From the NCBI GenBank assembly GCA_021299175.1, contig JAJTFY010000001.1, forward strand, positions 1 to 49,589: DNA of 49,589 nt, given 5' to 3'. The translations under genes and the position numbers were made by a program. The stretch is from Chitinophagaceae bacterium (GTDB lineage Bacteria > Bacteroidota > Bacteroidia > Chitinophagales > Chitinophagaceae). Positions 2,569-9,986 of this stretch are shown piece after piece (the stretch's first letter is position 1; each line of letters begins with the position of its first letter). The notes beneath the pieces were generated by a model. It was given only the letters and a program-made list of their open reading frames with translations, made no database searches and had not been told where the DNA came from.

Positions 2569-2610
2569 TCCTTCTGGGGAATTACATATTCCCCAGAAGG
2601 ATTTTTTATT
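2569..2610 (+). terminator. Rho-independent terminator after GH2
   Basis: A perfect 13-bp stem (TCCTTCTGGGGAA / TTCCCCAGAAGGA) with a 7-base loop is followed by a run of T. It lies 37 bases after the GH2 stop. It may also slow transcripts from the converging oxidoreductase gene, though the T-run on that strand is weak. Confidence 0.88.
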
Positions 2611-5600
2611 TGCGTAGAATTTGTCCCGCCTTGATCATTTCATTTTCCAACACATCATAAGGAACCTGCTGTACTGTGGTTTTCTTGTCAATGGCCAATG
2701 ATGCTGCTATGGCAGCAGACTGGCCAAGGATCATGAATACCGGTTCCATCCTGATGGATCCATAAGCAATATGTGTGCTGGAAACACAAACAGATACCAA
2801 CAAATTGGAGCACTGCTTCTCCTTGGGTGTGATGGCACCAAAGTCAATGGAATAAGGCCTGTCAGGCTTCACACCAATATCTCCCTCATTCTGAATATAT
2901 CCCTCAGCCGTCACATAGCGTTGTGTATTGTGTGAATCAAGGGAATAAGATCCCATGCCGATAGGACGCTTGATGTCAGTCTTGCCCAGTGCATCTTTTT
3001 CTGACATGACAAAATCACCCAACATCCTCCTGGCCTCTCTGACATAGAGCTGATAAGGCCATCCACCATTGTCAACAAATTCATCCTTTGCCAATCCATA
3101 GCTATTGAACTGTTGTTGAATATCTTTGGGAACGGAGGGATCGTTGGCCATGAAATAGAGATAACCCTTCTGGTAGCGTTCATGCTCAGTTATGATTTCT
3201 TTTCTGCGCACATAAGAAGCATCGGGATAATCGTAATTGGCACCAATAAAATCGCTGCTGAAAGGCCCATGGTTGTTGGTGTCCGTCTTCTTGTTGGGAA
3301 CTGCATCAAACTTTGGAAACACATCGCGCCAACCTGCTGCAAAAAGCCGTGAAAGAATTTCATAGCGCTTTGGATCATAGCCCTCCGGCTTGGGAAATGG
3401 AATGCTGTTGGCTGGTGCTGTACTCATGCACAAGCGGTAACAGTAGGCTTGGATTTTATTGTCGCCATCACCCTTTTCCCCCGGAGGCGCAGCGCTGACT
3501 TCAGGTAGCAAGCCGCTTGAAGGAAGGCCTGGAATTTTGTAAGGATCAATCTTCTGTTTGAAATGGTGCGCGTGGTGAAACACCTCCGTTTGCACACCAT
3601 TAAAACCATTGAATTGTTCGCCATATTGAACAGCCGCTTCCCTTCCTACAGCATATTCCACTCCTGCAGCAGCCATCAAATCCCCTTCGTATGTGGCATC
3701 AATGAATGCTTTCCCTGCAAAAACCAACCCATCCAGCGTTTTAAAGGAAAGGATTTTATTGCCTTTCATGTTTACTCCCCCAGGAGAACGGTCAAGCCAT
3801 CGGTCTCGGTAAACCATGATCATGTTTTCGTTGATCATCTGTTCAAAGGCGGCTTCAGCCACATGGGGCTCAAACAACCACATGGTTTTGTAGGCCGTAT
3901 CATTGGCAACAGTTCCTTGCCCACGGTTGCCAAACGCATTGCGCTGCTGCCATTTCCATGCACTGTCTGTTTGATAATGGTTGTACAAGCGGTGGTAGAA
4001 ATTCCTGGCCAATCCGCCAATGACGGTCTTGTCGCCAGTATCGGTATAGCCCAGGCCATTGGATGACAATCCTCCCAAATGCAGATCAGGAGAAACAACC
4101 GCCACCGATTTCCCCATTTGTATAGCCTGCACGGCAGCAATGACGGCAGAAGATGTTCCACCATACACAACAATGTCTGCTGTGATTTTTCTTTCCAAAG
4201 ACAATACCTGTCCATCTTTCAACAACTGCGCTTTCAGGCTTTCGTAGGAAAGATCCTGCACATCGATGTTTTTTTCCAAAGCCATGACTGCTGCTGTGGC
4301 GGCGGATTGTCCGAGTACCATGTAGACCGGTTCCATTCGAATGGAACTATAGGCCACATGTGATGCAGACAAACATACAGGCACCAGCAAATTTGAACAT
4401 TCTTTTCTTTGGGGGATGATGGAGCGGAAACTGATACCATAATAGGTTGACTTCTGCTTTCCATATCCACCCTCAATCCTGACCTTGCCCTGCGCATCCA
4501 ACACGCGTGCAACATAATGACAGTCCAAAGGATAGGTAGCCAGGGCAACCGGATCACTCACAGGCCTTTCACCATTGCAGTTTTGTTCTGTCATGACATA
4601 GTCGCTGATCAACCTTCTGGCTTCCCTCACATATACCTGATATGGGAAATGATCGGTATCGAGATACTCATCCTTTGGCCATCCCCAGGTTTTCATTTCC
4701 ATGCGCATGGCCAAGGGCAGTCGTTCATCGTTGCCAAGAAACCAAATCAGCCCCATGGAATAGTCTTTGTGCTTTGCGGCAATCTCAATCCTGGTTGCAT
4801 GATCCGCATTGGGCCATGCATATGAATTTCCTACAAAATTTCCCTGGTTGGTATCCGTTTTTTTGTTGGGCATGGGAGTGAAAGAAATGATACTGCTCAG
4901 AGAAATGTCAGGATTGAGCGCAATCATTCTTACCAGAAACTCATACCAAAGCGGGTTATAGTTTTTGGGCTTCTCCACATCAATGCGGTTGGCAGCATCG
5001 TTGGTCAGTGTCAACCGATAGCAATAGGTTTGTGTGCGGTCATCACCGGTACCCTCATCACCATTGGGCTTCGGATCAATAAAAGGCAATAATCCGCTTT
5101 CAGGCTTTCCTGGAATGACATAAGGATCGATGGATGTTTTGCCATTGCCTACCACATGCCCCATTCGAATACCATTCATGGTTTCGCCATAGGTAGCATT
5201 GCTTTCACGGCCAACCTTAAAAGAGAGCCCCGCCATGCGCATGAGATCACCCTCATAACTCGCATCAATGAACATTTTTGCAGCAATCTTCATCCCGCTT
5301 TCCATGCTGATGATTTTCAAACGCCCGTCCTCTTTTATTGGCGCAGACTTGAGGTTGATGCGCTGGTTGTAGATCACATTAACACCATGATCATGCAACA
5401 TCTGTTTGAAGATTTTTTCACCAATGCCAGACTCATAGACCCATTGAATTTTAAGCGAATCATTTTTGCCGGTATATGTTCTTTTTTTAGAGCGTTCAAA
5501 AAACTCAGCACGCCCCTCCGCACGCCAGGCCGATGAATCAAGGTAATGGGTATAAATCCTTTGGTAAAAATCTTTTGTAAAACCTCCTGCAATCCTGAAA

Positions 5601-5845
5601 TTGTTCAGGTCGGTTGCAGTGAGCCCCGAAGTGGCCATTCCGCCAACATGATTGTTGGTACTGATCAACACTACCGATTTGCCCATCTTGGCCACCTGCA
5701 ATGCAGCTGTGATGCCTGCAGGCGTTTCTCCATACACGCAGATATCAAAAACCCTTTCTTTTGCTGTGGCTGATGAAAAAATGAAAATGGCTAACAGAGG
5801 AATATTTAACAATCGTTTTAGTGCATTTTGGAAGCAGGACATCAT
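2606..5845 (-). CDS. Secreted FAD-dependent oxidoreductase with two full-length tandem modules
   Basis: The 1079-residue protein has an N-terminal signal peptide (hydrophobic core LLNIPLLAIFIFSSATA) and two homologous halves. Each half begins with a Rossmann FAD-binding segment: VYGETPAGITAALQVAKMGK near residue 35 and VYGGTSSAVIAAVQAIQMGK near 565. Both repeat the same landmarks in order: HVGGM/HLGGL, DASYEGDLM/DATYEGDLM, PNKKTDTN, YVREARR, and CSNLLV..CVS..H.AY.SIRMEP with GQSAA. This is the FAD_oxidored family (PF12831), normally present as a single module of about 500-600 residues. The substrate is unknown; relatives often sit near polysaccharide-degradation genes, and a GH2 gene lies convergently next to it. 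ATG at 5845 is followed at once by a second ATG. Confidence 0.85.
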   Translation of the reverse strand: MMSCFQNALKRLLNIPLLAIFIFSSATAKERVFDICVYGETPAGITAALQVAKMGKSVVLISTNNHVGGMATSGLTATDLNNFRIAGGFTKDFYQRIYTHYLDSSAWRAEGRAEFFERSKKRTYTGKNDSLKIQWVYESGIGEKIFKQMLHDHGVNVIYNQRINLKSAPIKEDGRLKIISMESGMKIAAKMFIDASYEGDLMRMAGLSFKVGRESNATYGETMNGIRMGHVVGNGKTSIDPYVIPGKPESGLLPFIDPKPNGDEGTGDDRTQTYCYRLTLTNDAANRIDVEKPKNYNPLWYEFLVRMIALNPDISLSSIISFTPMPNKKTDTNQGNFVGNSYAWPNADHATRIEIAAKHKDYSMGLIWFLGNDERLPLAMRMEMKTWGWPKDEYLDTDHFPYQVYVREARRLISDYVMTEQNCNGERPVSDPVALATYPLDCHYVARVLDAQGKVRIEGGYGKQKSTYYGISFRSIIPQRKECSNLLVPVCLSASHVAYSSIRMEPVYMVLGQSAATAAVMALEKNIDVQDLSYESLKAQLLKDGQVLSLERKITADIVVYGGTSSAVIAAVQAIQMGKSVAVVSPDLHLGGLSSNGLGYTDTGDKTVIGGLARNFYHRLYNHYQTDSAWKWQQRNAFGNRGQGTVANDTAYKTMWLFEPHVAEAAFEQMINENMIMVYRDRWLDRSPGGVNMKGNKILSFKTLDGLVFAGKAFIDATYEGDLMAAAGVEYAVGREAAVQYGEQFNGFNGVQTEVFHHAHHFKQKIDPYKIPGLPSSGLLPEVSAAPPGEKGDGDNKIQAYCYRLCMSTAPANSIPFPKPEGYDPKRYEILSRLFAAGWRDVFPKFDAVPNKKTDTNNHGPFSSDFIGANYDYPDASYVRRKEIITEHERYQKGYLYFMANDPSVPKDIQQQFNSYGLAKDEFVDNGGWPYQLYVREARRMLGDFVMSEKDALGKTDIKRPIGMGSYSLDSHNTQRYVTAEGYIQNEGDIGVKPDRPYSIDFGAITPKEKQCSNLLVSVCVSSTHIAYGSIRMEPVFMILGQSAAIAASLAIDKKTTVQQVPYDVLENEMIKAGQILRK

Positions 5846-6716: not shown

Positions 6717-7673
6717 TCAGTCTTCATCTTCCGCTTTCAATAGCTTGATATCCTTTGCAAGCTGCTCCATGTCCAGGTCGAGCGTACCATTGTAGATGCC
6801 CCTGATTCTTCCGGTTTTATCTACCAGCAATACATGTTCGGTATGCAAAAAATCTGTGCTGTCCTTGGTAAAACCCAATGCCTCTTCTGCAAAATAAGAC
6901 CTGCGGGCAAGCTTATAGATATCCGCCTTGGGGCCAGTAAGCAAATGCCAATTGGGAGCAATGATCTTGTTGGTGTTGGCGTATTCTCTCAACCTTGAAA
7001 CGCTGTCGCGCCAGGGAGTGACAGAAAATGATAGAAATACTACCGCGGAATCCTTTTCATATGCATGGTTGAGTTTGGCAATCTTGGTCATCATGCCAGG
7101 ACAGATGCTCCCACACCCAGTAAAAAAGAAATTGGCCACCTGAATTTTCCCCTGCACATCTTTTTCAGAATATGCATGCCCATCCTGGTTTTTTAGATCA
7201 AAGCTACCGATGGTATGGGTGATGGTATTTTCAATCTTTGAAGACCCCGTCAAGAAAATAGGTGTAAAATCGGGAGTATTTTGTGGCCCTGATTCATATC
7301 CCCTTTCGTAATTCATTTCCCGAACCAGCTTCCCTTCCGGATTCCACTCCCGGCAAGTGCCCTGGTATTCTCCATTGGCAAAAAAATAATGCGATTGGAT
7401 TTTCCCATTGCTCCAATACCGTTTCAAAGCCCCGGTTTTCACGCCCTGCACATAGTAGCGCTGCTCCATCAAAACACCATTCTCATGATACCTTTTGAAT
7501 GATCCATGTTCCAATCCGTTGTAGAAAGAAGATACCGAAAGGGTATCCTTCGTGCCCGGATAAAATTCAACTTGCTTAATGCCCTTGGGCTGCATCTTGC
7601 ATCCCATCAAAACAATCAGGCAAAAGGCAAACCAACTAATTTGAAACCGTACCGGCTGTTCCAAAGAAACCAT
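6717..7673 (-). CDS. MORN-repeat / SCO1-SenC fusion lipoprotein
   Basis: The track ORF starts at 7778, but the lipoprotein signal (start MVSLEQ, lipobox LIVLMGC) places the start at ATG 7673, giving 318 residues and a 38-base overlap with the YHYH gene. After the lipidated Cys come several YwqK/MORN-type repeats (YHENGVLMEQRYY, YWSNGKIQSHYF, WNPEGKLVREMNYERG). A thioredoxin-fold SCO1/SenC domain with the copper-binding CxxxC (TGCGSICPGM) and the distal His (DFLHTEHVLLVD) follows. SCO proteins deliver copper to cytochrome oxidase CuA or act as thiol-disulfide reductants. It is the last gene of the sigma-factor operon. The MORN extension is unusual for this family, and its role is unknown. Confidence 0.85.
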   Translation of the reverse strand: MVSLEQPVRFQISWFAFCLIVLMGCKMQPKGIKQVEFYPGTKDTLSVSSFYNGLEHGSFKRYHENGVLMEQRYYVQGVKTGALKRYWSNGKIQSHYFFANGEYQGTCREWNPEGKLVREMNYERGYESGPQNTPDFTPIFLTGSSKIENTITHTIGSFDLKNQDGHAYSEKDVQGKIQVANFFFTGCGSICPGMMTKIAKLNHAYEKDSAVVFLSFSVTPWRDSVSRLREYANTNKIIAPNWHLLTGPKADIYKLARRSYFAEEALGFTKDSTDFLHTEHVLLVDKTGRIRGIYNGTLDLDMEQLAKDIKLLKAEDED

Positions 7674-8406
7674 TTCCATTGATATAAGGATCTGCATCAG
7701 TGATATGATAATGATAAATACCAGCAGGATAATCAGCCGTGGCGTGTTTGTGTCCGTGGTAGGCATCCAGACTGGCATTGGTCACCTTCGCGCCATTCTC
7801 TTCTGGACCATATACAGGAAAGCCATCCAACAGAAAACCCAACAAGGCTGACTTGTTCAACTTTGTTTGCGTCAGGTAAAGTGGTTCAACATGATAATGG
7901 TACATGCCGCCGGGAGCAGGATGTCCCCAGCTTTGGTCAAAACTCGCCATTTCCCCGGTCAAAGGTTGATTAGGACCAGCGTACTGGTTGAAGAATGGCA
8001 CTCCATTAACTGTTACACCGATGGGGCCCAAAGGGGTTGGCTTTTTGCTGCTTGCTTCGGCAGGATTGATCGGAATCTTGAAGGTATATGACAGGGTATT
8101 GATGGAATTGGGATTCTTGACAAATGTTTTTCCGCCAAAAGTGACCCCGCTGAAATTTTCATACAGTGGATTGGTTGTTGGATAATAGGCACTCTTGTGG
8201 TCTGGTGTACCACTGCTTTTGATCGTAATAAAAGTTCCATCAGAAGTGATGCTGGTGGCGCCGTAAATCTTTTTATAAACGTCAGGGACCGTTGACGGGG
8301 TTGAAGGAGTTGAGGGGGTTGAAGGACTTGAAGTTGCAGCTTTCTTGCAAGCCAAGCCAAGAATGATCAAGGCTGATAAGGTGAAAAAACTGTTTTTCGT
8401 ATTCAT
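7636..8406 (-). CDS. YHYH-domain lipoprotein
   Basis: The 256-residue protein has a lipoprotein signal (LSALIILGLAC) and then a low-complexity linker of (S)TPS triplets encoded by a 9-bp DNA repeat. A YHYH domain (PF14240 type) follows, with two copies of the signature (GGMYHYHVEPL and AGIYHYHITDADPY). The many paired His residues suggest metal binding, but the function of the family is not established. It should be anchored to a membrane and face the periplasm or the surface. It is fourth in the sigma-factor operon, 22 bases after the CnrX-like gene and overlapping the SCO gene. Confidence 0.85.
   Translation of the reverse strand: MNTKNSFFTLSALIILGLACKKAATSSPSTPSTPSTPSTVPDVYKKIYGATSITSDGTFITIKSSGTPDHKSAYYPTTNPLYENFSGVTFGGKTFVKNPNSINTLSYTFKIPINPAEASSKKPTPLGPIGVTVNGVPFFNQYAGPNQPLTGEMASFDQSWGHPAPGGMYHYHVEPLYLTQTKLNKSALLGFLLDGFPVYGPEENGAKVTNASLDAYHGHKHATADYPAGIYHYHITDADPYINGNGFFGTAGTVSN
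8291..8335 (-). repeat. 9-bp repeat array inside the YHYH gene
   Basis: Five consecutive 9-mers are GTTGACGGG, GTTGAAGGA, GTTGAGGGG, GTTGAAGGA and CTTGAAGTT (plus-strand reading). On the coding strand each nine-mer encodes a Ser/Thr-Pro-Ser-type triplet, so copy-number change would keep frame. The unit is the same as in the intergenic arrays at 17496 and 22654. Confidence 0.8.
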
Positions 8407-8428
8407 GTTTAAGATTTAATGCAGGTGA

Positions 8429-8959
8429 TTAATATTTGTCTGGAGGAGGAGGACGATGGCCTTCTTCGTTCGGAGGTGGTGGTGGCATGCCTGTTCTAGG
8501 CGGTCTGGCTTCAGCCATCATGACGGCAAGCTGATCCAGCAATCCATCAAATTTTATCTTTTGTTTGTCATTGCAAAGGGCCCTTACTTGTTGAAAATGC
8601 TCAAGATTGAGCAACTCCAGTTGCTGTATTTTGCTGGTGATGGCCTCAACAGTCTTTTTTTTCTGGGTATCAGCAATCATAGGCTGTTTGAGCAGCTGAA
8701 ATAGATTTTCTTTGGCAATCCTGATATCCTTTTTCAACGACCTTGCTGATGTCTGATGCTCCTCGATTAAATCCTGAAAAGCAAGCAACTGACTTGAATC
8801 CAGTTCAAGCTCGTGGACCAAAAACTCTCGTGGAGATCCTTTTGCATCTTTCATCTTTGGAGGCTTGTTGATCCAGAAGAACAATATGGTTACAGCATTG
8901 GCCACCAGCAGGGTAGCTACCAACCATGTGAGGAGTTTATTTTTATTGGCATTGTTCAT
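8429..8959 (-). CDS. CnrX/CpxP-like periplasmic heavy-metal-sensor-type protein
   Basis: The 176-residue protein has one N-terminal membrane segment (LLTWLVATLLVANAVTILFFW), so the remainder faces the periplasm. The body is long and helical, with LELDSSQLLAFQDLIEEHQ, a Lys/Gln-rich hairpin and FQQVRALCNDKQKIKFDGLL. This matches the helical hairpin of the Spy/CpxP/ZraP/CnrX superfamily (Metal_resist). The C-terminus is a Pro-rich tail with few His (GMPPPPPNEEGHRPPPPDKY). It lies 12 bases after the one-helix membrane protein and two genes after the ECF sigma factor, the position expected of a signal-sensing partner. A chaperone role like Spy is the main alternative. Confidence 0.75.
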   Translation of the reverse strand: MNNANKNKLLTWLVATLLVANAVTILFFWINKPPKMKDAKGSPREFLVHELELDSSQLLAFQDLIEEHQTSARSLKKDIRIAKENLFQLLKQPMIADTQKKKTVEAITSKIQQLELLNLEHFQQVRALCNDKQKIKFDGLLDQLAVMMAEARPPRTGMPPPPPNEEGHRPPPPDKY

Positions 8960-8971
8960 GATGACAACGGT

Positions 8972-9274
8972 TTAATAAATTGAATTGATGGATTGATTGT
9001 AATCAGCTGCAAAACGCTGTATTGAATAGCCTTCTGTTTGGCTTTTTTCTGTTGATGAAAATTGAAACAAAAGAAAACCGTTCAATATCAACAAAAGTGA
9101 TAATGCGGCAATGGCCATTGCAGGCCTGACTACAAAGCCCCATTCCTCACCGGCATTCCGGGCTTCCATTCTTGCCTTTAACCTGGTATAAAAAAACTCG
9201 TCCGTTCCAACCTCCTGGATATTATCCAACAACTGAAGATGGTCTTCGAGTATGCCGGTTGATCTGTTTTTCAT
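8972..9274 (-). CDS. Single-pass membrane protein, probable anti-sigma factor
   Basis: The 100-residue protein starts at ATG 9274, ten bases after the sigma-factor stop; the track's 9307 start is TTG and overlaps the sigma gene. It has an acidic N-terminal segment of about 55 residues (ILEDHLQLLDNIQEVGTDEFFYTRLKARM), one transmembrane helix (AMAIAALSLLLILNGFLLF) and a short outer tail. That size and topology resemble CnrY-type minimal anti-sigma factors, and the gene directly follows an ECF sigma gene. No recognisable zinc-binding anti-sigma motif (HxxxCxxC) is present. The anti-sigma role is inferred from context. Confidence 0.6.
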   Translation of the reverse strand: MKNRSTGILEDHLQLLDNIQEVGTDEFFYTRLKARMEARNAGEEWGFVVRPAMAIAALSLLLILNGFLLFQFSSTEKSQTEGYSIQRFAADYNQSINSIY

Positions 9275-9284
9275 TACAATTGTT

Positions 9285-9848
9285 TTATGGTGTGTAATAT
9301 TGCTCAAGATTCTTTTTTAGGTTTTCTTTTGCCCTGCTCAGCAAGGATTCAATCGCCTTGACCCCCAACCCCATGATGACTGTTGCTTCCTCATATTTCA
9401 TGCCTTGAATCCGAATCAACGTGAACGCCAGTTGTTGTTTTTCCGGCAGTTTACCAATCGCTCTGTACAAGGCAGTCGCTTTTTCCTTGTTTTCTGCAGC
9501 AATGCCCGGATTCATTTCCACCACATCCATACTTCTTTTTTCTTCGGGCATCCACCAAGGAATGATAGCGTGTAGCCTTTGCCTGGTCTTCCTTTTCCTC
9601 AATTTTTCCAAGGCCTTTCGGATGGCGATTCTCTGCACCCAAGTGGAAAGTTTTGATTCTCCCTTGAATGACCCAATCGACCCATGTACCTGAATAAAGG
9701 TTTCCTGCAGCACGTCTTCAGCATCATCACTGTCCTGCACAATGTTCAATACGGTATGATGTAAGCGGTGGCTGAGGTTGTTCACCAACCACCTAAAAGC
9801 AGGTTCATCCCCCTGCCTCAAACCGCTTATGAGTTCCGCTTCATTCAA
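9285..9848 (-). CDS. ECF-type RNA polymerase sigma factor
   Basis: The 187-residue protein has the sigma-70 region 2 signature (DSDDAEDVLQETFIQVHGSIGSFKGESKLSTW) and region 4 (LPEKQQLAFTLIRIQGMKYEEATVIMGLGVKAIESLLSRAKENLKK). It lacks regions 1 and 3, as ECF sigmas do. It would direct core polymerase to an envelope-stress regulon, probably including its own operon. The frame is closed by a stop at 9858 and no ATG is available before the conserved region, so TTG at 9848 is the best start. The co-transcribed membrane and periplasmic genes suggest that its activity is controlled at the inner membrane. Confidence 0.9.
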   Translation of the reverse strand: MNEAELISGLRQGDEPAFRWLVNNLSHRLHHTVLNIVQDSDDAEDVLQETFIQVHGSIGSFKGESKLSTWVQRIAIRKALEKLRKRKTRQRLHAIIPWWMPEEKRSMDVVEMNPGIAAENKEKATALYRAIGKLPEKQQLAFTLIRIQGMKYEEATVIMGLGVKAIESLLSRAKENLKKNLEQYYTP

Positions 9849-9986
9849 ATTACTCCATTATAGATGCACCTAAGTTCCGATTCCTTCGGATACAATGCAT
9901 GATCTTACATTAGTTAAGGTCCTTGAACATAAAAACAAGATTCTACAATATTACAGGATTCCTCAACCTTGTTAATCTCCTTTGAT

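Follow-up and report, generated by a model that had tools for sequence, protein, structure and literature searches.

A probable envelope metal-sensing operon of Bacteroidota with a CnrX-like sensor and copper-type lipoprotein cargo

What does an extracytoplasmic function (ECF) sigma factor serve when a CnrX-like sensor is encoded beside it and the genes that follow specify lipoproteins and no efflux pump? The question is raised by positions 6717-9848 of a 49,589-nucleotide stretch of DNA (the whole of which is called the window) from contig JAJTFY010000001.1 of a Chitinophagaceae bacterium, a freshwater-type Bacteroidota genome with an assembly of 2.27 Mb (GCA_021299175.1, our G000). Five open reading frames (ORFs) lie there on the minus strand and encode an ECF sigma factor (SIG), a putative anti-sigma factor with one transmembrane helix (HEL), a CnrX-like sensor (CNRX), a YHYH lipoprotein and a MORN-SCO lipoprotein. 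A preliminary description, made from the letters alone, had called these ORFs as an operon and suggested that it senses and handles copper or redox stress in the envelope; its coordinates, the gaps of 10, 12 and 22 nt between SIG, HEL, CNRX and YHYH and the 38-nt overlap of YHYH with MORN-SCO were all exact. Its interpretation largely holds, with the corrections given below. We consider it fairly probable that the operon is autoregulated, senses metal in the envelope and works in the manner of CnrYXH, with another metal site and with copper-type cargo. Its features are the following.

9861..9888, minus strand: predicted promoter CGAAGGAATCGGAACTTAGGTGCATCTA (-35 CGAAGG, 15-nt spacer, -10 GCATCTA), 12 nt ahead of the TTG start and conserved in congeners
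9285..9848, minus strand: SIG, ECF sigma factor, 187 amino acids (aa), TTG start, from Pfam and PDB matches
8972..9274, minus strand: HEL, putative anti-sigma factor, 100 aa, from its translation and its kept position between SIG and CNRX
8429..8959, minus strand: CNRX, membrane-anchored periplasmic sensor, 176 aa, predicted CnrX fold (AlphaFold2, Foldseek)
8756..8758, minus strand: His68 codon of CNRX, candidate metal ligand by residue conservation, in the first long periplasmic helix
8597..8599, minus strand: His121 codon of CNRX, counterpart of CnrX His119, opposite the His of HVFEM in the NccX alignment
8573..8575, minus strand: Cys129 codon of CNRX, near-invariant, at the turn between helices 3 and 4
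7636..8406, minus strand: YHYH lipoprotein, 256 aa, lipobox at Cys20 (PF14240)
6717..7673, minus strand: MORN-SCO lipoprotein, 318 aa, with MORN_2 repeats and a SCO domain in one chain (Pfam SCO1-SenC, MORN_2)
7280..7281, minus strand: junction of a loss of about 180 nt, where MORN and SCO are joined in frame, from alignment with the relatives L062-L066 and congeners

Pfam profiles matched above cut-off in SIG (Sigma70_r2 and Sigma70_r4_2, each 1.3e-13) and in the cargo (YHYH 4.7e-25, SCO1-SenC 1.4e-24 and three MORN_2 repeats), while an Rfam scan of the window gave no match. The PDB relatives of SIG include SigH/RpoE (1e-20) and CnrH (1e-10).

Conservation of the gene neighbourhood had been named beforehand as a test of the operon, and the arrangement does recur across Bacteroidota, far above chance expectation. 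Among 80 relative YHYH loci, MORN lies beside YHYH in 78 and SCO in 77, and CNRX is found within the stretch examined in 22, upstream or divergent; these 22 come from Chitinophagales, Cytophagales (Spirosoma, Dyadobacter, Larkinella), Sphingobacteriales (Pedobacter) and Flavobacteriales. A sample of 100 genomes of the family contains YHYH in 27 and CNRX in 59, and the two stand within about 4 kb of each other in 13 of the 27 (counted by hand from the family-genome listings), where roughly 0.1 would be expected by chance. In the phylum sample of 198 genomes YHYH is present in 23, CNRX in 82 and MbnP in 50, and five of the ten genomes that have both YHYH and CNRX carry them within 3 kb. Relatives of the YHYH protein, mostly distant, were found in 50 of 149 genomes of a class-wide sample. 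The SIG-HEL-CNRX cassette forms a separate unit: sigma factor, short one-helix protein and anchored sensor are clustered in the window and in most of 40 cassettes inspected, and the position of HEL between its two neighbours is kept across relatives. What adjoins the cassette varies from YHYH-MORN-SCO to MbnP-MbnH with a long YHYH, to a small Spy-like secreted protein, or to nothing obvious. On the sigma tree the copper-type cargo label requires about six changes.

The link between cassette and cargo, which the preliminary description could only suppose, is backed by a promoter common to the sigma and YHYH genes. The motif CGAAGG-N15-GCATCTA recurs in congeners, again ahead of the sigma gene. 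In the four loci where the cassette is divergent (L067, L070, L105, L127) matching sites are directed towards the sigma gene as well as towards YHYH, a pattern that speaks for autoregulation together with control of the cargo. Under a strict consensus (score at least 10 of 13) sites precede 31 of 80 SIG and 24 of 116 YHYH genes, as against 10 of 300 control genes, in Fisher tests that treat related loci as independent. A relaxed consensus with a CGTMTA-like -10, partly fitted to the tested loci after some sites had been seen, detects sites ahead of YHYH in Cytophagales as well as in some cassette-free loci. In silico, SIG is thus predicted to drive its own operon from a conserved promoter; since the exact pattern occurs only once in the assembly, before SIG, the sigma factor probably serves no other operon in this genome. 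The shared promoter also bears on whether the cassette and an independently regulated YHYH-MORN-SCO group are simply two unrelated neighbours. Many YHYH-MORN-SCO loci do stand without a nearby cassette, and many of the cassettes adjoin other genes, but the sites before both units in divergent loci, and an adjacency that appears at several places in the sigma tree and in differing orientations, make such a coincidence very improbable.

Individual loci illustrate the range of arrangements. The window's genome has a second SIG-HEL-CNRX (L182, G000:C152:1-14000) that is accompanied by neither YHYH nor SCO and is devoid of His68. In L180, L192, L194, L197, L198 and others the cassette stands between a conserved gene of about 950 aa and a small secreted Spy-like protein, with no evident copper link. 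In L187 and L188 a YHYH of about 540 aa adjoins a cassette whose CNRX has Cys129 and lacks His68 and His121, with metallophosphoesterase and Lcl_C genes as neighbours. In L065 (5194-6278) a 102-aa sigma-like ORF runs into YHYH, HEL and CNRX being missing; this copy is rearranged or misassembled. In 14 to 16 Sediminibacterium-like loci (among L087-L112) YHYH-MORN-SCO is preceded by a peroxiredoxin-like gene and followed by a fatty acid hydroxylase gene.

The sensor had been described as CpxP/CnrX-type, and of that claim the fold stood but the CnrX metal site did not. The AlphaFold2 model of CNRX comprises one transmembrane helix and a four-helix hook (pLDDT 87). In Foldseek, CnrX and NccX came first (TM-score to target 0.58-0.80) and made up 15 of the 16 best matches, the remaining one being a Salmonella protein at rank 6; CpxP, ZraP and Spy came after them. 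Because no match fell below E 0.001, the assignment depends on the TM-scores and on how consistently such proteins fill the list, and the Metal_resist family (PF13801) scored 22.3 bits, below its curated cut-off of 29.2. On the strength of the model CNRX is assigned the CnrX/NccX fold. The metal ligands of CnrX we take to be H42, H46, E63, H119 and M123 (E63 and M123 also stand in PDB titles). In the NccX alignment these positions correspond to R44, V48, I65, H121 and V125 of CNRX, only the His119 counterpart being kept among the five, and His68 and Cys129 are conserved here instead. His121 is found in nearly all CNRX proteins. The hairpin of helices 2 and 3, together with the alignment to CnrX, suggests that His68 and His121 lie close to each other. 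The C-terminal tail (8429-8510 in the window) is rich in Pro and His, and in congeners (L062, L063, L066) it has expanded into variable GEGHRPPPP-type repeats, which are possibly metal-binding or a length-variable linker.

CnrX responds to Ni and Co, and this response and the CnrX fold would favour a different divalent metal (Zn, Ni or Co) as the signal, SCO and YHYH then being metal lipoproteins of a general type. A jumbo-phage study that predicts a His/Asp metal site with Zn and a hydrolase activity for YHYH (PMC7824862) points the same way. However, CNRX has other residues at four of the five positions that bind Ni/Co in CnrX, the cargo has no efflux pump and its alternative is MbnP/MbnH, and we regard sensing of Zn, Ni or Co as quite improbable.

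Copper is the best-supported metal, because elsewhere the same cassette drives MbnP, MbnH and YHYH. In L162-L165 and L167 it is accompanied by MbnP (2.4e-40), a di-haem protein of the MbnH type (CCP_MauG 4.8e-51) and a long YHYH (Pfam), and MbnP also adjoins CNRX in three genomes of the phylum sample (G149, G180, G324). MbnP is absent from the window's genome by the phylum-sample search. Other copper operons combine MbnPH-like genes with Sco genes (PMC9426467). In the SCO domain the ligands C187xxxC191 and His277 are invariant in 76 of 76 aligned rows and the best solved relatives are SCO proteins, which upholds the earlier call of a SCO1 lipoprotein with CxxxC and His; with the alternative MbnP/MbnH cargo, these ligands strengthen the copper link that had been suggested for the cargo. 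Since the window's genome carries other SCO genes, this one need not serve a respiratory oxidase. YHYH, likewise correctly called as a lipoprotein, scores 89.1 bits against a curated cut-off of 25, and its H162, YHYH 169-172, HGH 217-219 and YHYH 231-234 are invariant in a 52-sequence alignment. A structure search returned no solved relative of YHYH, and its AlphaFold2 model (pLDDT 54) is unusable. Nothing relevant was found in a literature search for a link of YHYH with copper or SCO. On a Loktanella plasmid (L237), two YHYH genes flank two genes of the PEBP/YbhB family. Judged from relatives, the cargo surface proteins most likely handle copper.

One element of the cargo is peculiar to this assembly. 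The 318-aa MORN-SCO protein announced by the preliminary description is indeed a single ORF in the window, but it is not the normal state: in L062-L066, whose YHYH is 92-94% identical, and in the congener loci L143, L144, L146 and L147, MORN and SCO are encoded separately, by genes that overlap in different frames. Compared with these loci the window is short of about 180 nt between the two; all congeners checked (G117, G120, G125, G131) retain the stretch, and a search of the rest of the assembly did not find it. The fusion is either a recent lineage deletion or an assembly error; because congeners keep the two genes separate it is no property of the system, and we rejected it as a meaningful domain architecture. 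Read from these alignments, the ancestral operon consists of six genes: SIG, HEL, CNRX, YHYH, a MORN lipoprotein and a SCO lipoprotein.

The partner of SIG would be HEL. Its topology agrees with the CnrY-like protein that had been proposed (a cytoplasmic part of about 48 aa, one transmembrane helix at about 49-70 and a periplasmic tail of about 28 aa), whereas in sequence the PDB search gave no similarity to CnrY or any solved anti-sigma factor, no Pfam family matched, and the protein is short and fast-diverging. The class II anti-sigma factor CnrY wraps its sigma factor with two helices (PMC7406223), and, by analogy only, the two short predicted cytoplasmic helices of HEL would fit this type of wrapping. 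In Bacteroidota only 6% of ECF sigma factors were found beside a class I anti-sigma domain (PMC7406223).

Taken together, these observations suggest the following mechanism. HEL would keep SIG at the inner membrane through its short cytoplasmic part, and the periplasmic tail of HEL would meet CNRX, a sensor of CnrX/Spy fold on a one-helix anchor. Binding or loss of copper at His68 and His121, possibly with Cys129, may alter CNRX and HEL and free SIG, which would then transcribe from CGAAGG-N15-GCATCTA before its own gene and so induce YHYH, MORN and SCO as well. SCO would bind or deliver Cu via CxxxC and His, YHYH would be a His-rich lipoprotein that handles or uses metal, and MORN an accessory lipoprotein. 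The computed basis of this proposal is the gene order, its conservation, the CnrX fold, the shared promoter, the MbnP-MbnH cargo and the invariant residues; we infer the contacts of HEL with SIG and CNRX, copper as the signal, the direction of the response and the function of YHYH.

Besides the two features of the promoter comparison given above, several points weigh against this mechanism. In Cytophagales the promoter stands before YHYH and not before the sigma gene. The anti-sigma role of HEL rests on position and topology, because no sequence similarity to CnrY was found. YHYH in other bacteria and phages, including plasmid relatives, has no evident copper context. All 35 cassettes that are linked to YHYH and have SCO- or Mbn-type cargo carry His68, as do 14 of the 28 others, an association that is not significant after phylogeny correction (three independent pairs) and is suggestive only. 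Finally, the cassette is also found without copper cargo, for example with the small Spy-like protein, and a general envelope-stress role is possible for that reason. CNRX could then be a CpxP/Spy-like switch that senses misfolding or the oxidation of Cys129, with SCO as a thiol-disulphide reductase and not a copper chaperone. Cys129 is the most conserved candidate residue (62 of 63 CNRX, including cassettes without copper cargo), CNRX also matches CpxP, ZraP and Spy, a Spy-like secreted protein follows many cassettes, and a DsbD-type gene pair adjoins YHYH-MORN-SCO or the cassette in L078, L080, L086 and L090. We nevertheless find a thiol-redox or envelope-stress switch rather unlikely, as His68 and His121 both occur in all 35 SCO- or Mbn-linked cassettes and the MbnP-MbnH cargo indicates copper.

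Within the copper-sensing reading the direction of the response is a further matter. Since neither type of cargo is an efflux pump, a response to scarcity is as open as one to excess. CNRX may have been rewired to copper acquisition, the copper-bound sensor restraining SIG and a shortage inducing SCO, MbnP-MbnH and YHYH; in that case YHYH would form a new class among the copper proteins of the periplasm. The absence of an efflux pump from the cargo, and the fact that copper down-regulates the MopE/CorA-type genes of methanotrophs (PMC3621798), leave room for this proposal, which we regard as a tentative possibility.

How does the operon relate to known systems? It shares with CnrYXH of Cupriavidus metallidurans, and with NccYXH, the clustering of an ECF sigma factor, a one-helix anti-sigma candidate and an anchored sensor of CnrX fold, together with the kinship of SIG to CnrH, so that the earlier proposal of such a trio with a non-efflux cargo is supported. 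It differs in that the sigma gene comes first, HEL has shown no sequence similarity to CnrY, and the cargo is YHYH-MORN-SCO or MbnP-MbnH-YHYH with no linked RND efflux pump. The operon thus works like CnrYXH yet is no strict member, and we do not file it as one because neither the full set of CnrX metal ligands nor the efflux cargo was found when checked. MbnP/MbnH pairs, known from methanobactin and other copper operons, are an alternative cargo of the same cassette and adjoin YHYH; however, no FecIR-type regulator accompanies the operon, unlike in methanobactin operons (PMC3621798). The SCO domain resembles SCO1/SenC chaperones such as B. subtilis YpmQ/Sco (1xzo) in its CxxxC and His, but is encoded beside MORN and YHYH and not among oxidase genes. 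The YHYH of jumbo phages shares the domain name and conserved His with the window protein, but is tail-associated and a predicted hydrolase (PMC7824862), whereas here it is a lipoprotein encoded with SCO under predicted sigma control. The genes next to the operon, a nitroreductase and a long FAD-dependent oxidoreductase, have no evident link to it; window positions 2606-5845 encode a 1079-aa protein in which two FAD_oxidored stretches follow each other.

No paper describing this operon was found in the literature searched, most subscription journals being outside that search. It would be a switch of a kind already known, metal-sensing, in a conserved but apparently undescribed form. The uncharacterised YHYH family would thereby be given a regulon and a promoter, along with a metal that can be tested, and the CnrX sensor fold would be extended to a new ligand set and a new cargo across much of Bacteroidota. 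The cassette swaps its cargo between SCO and MbnPH types.

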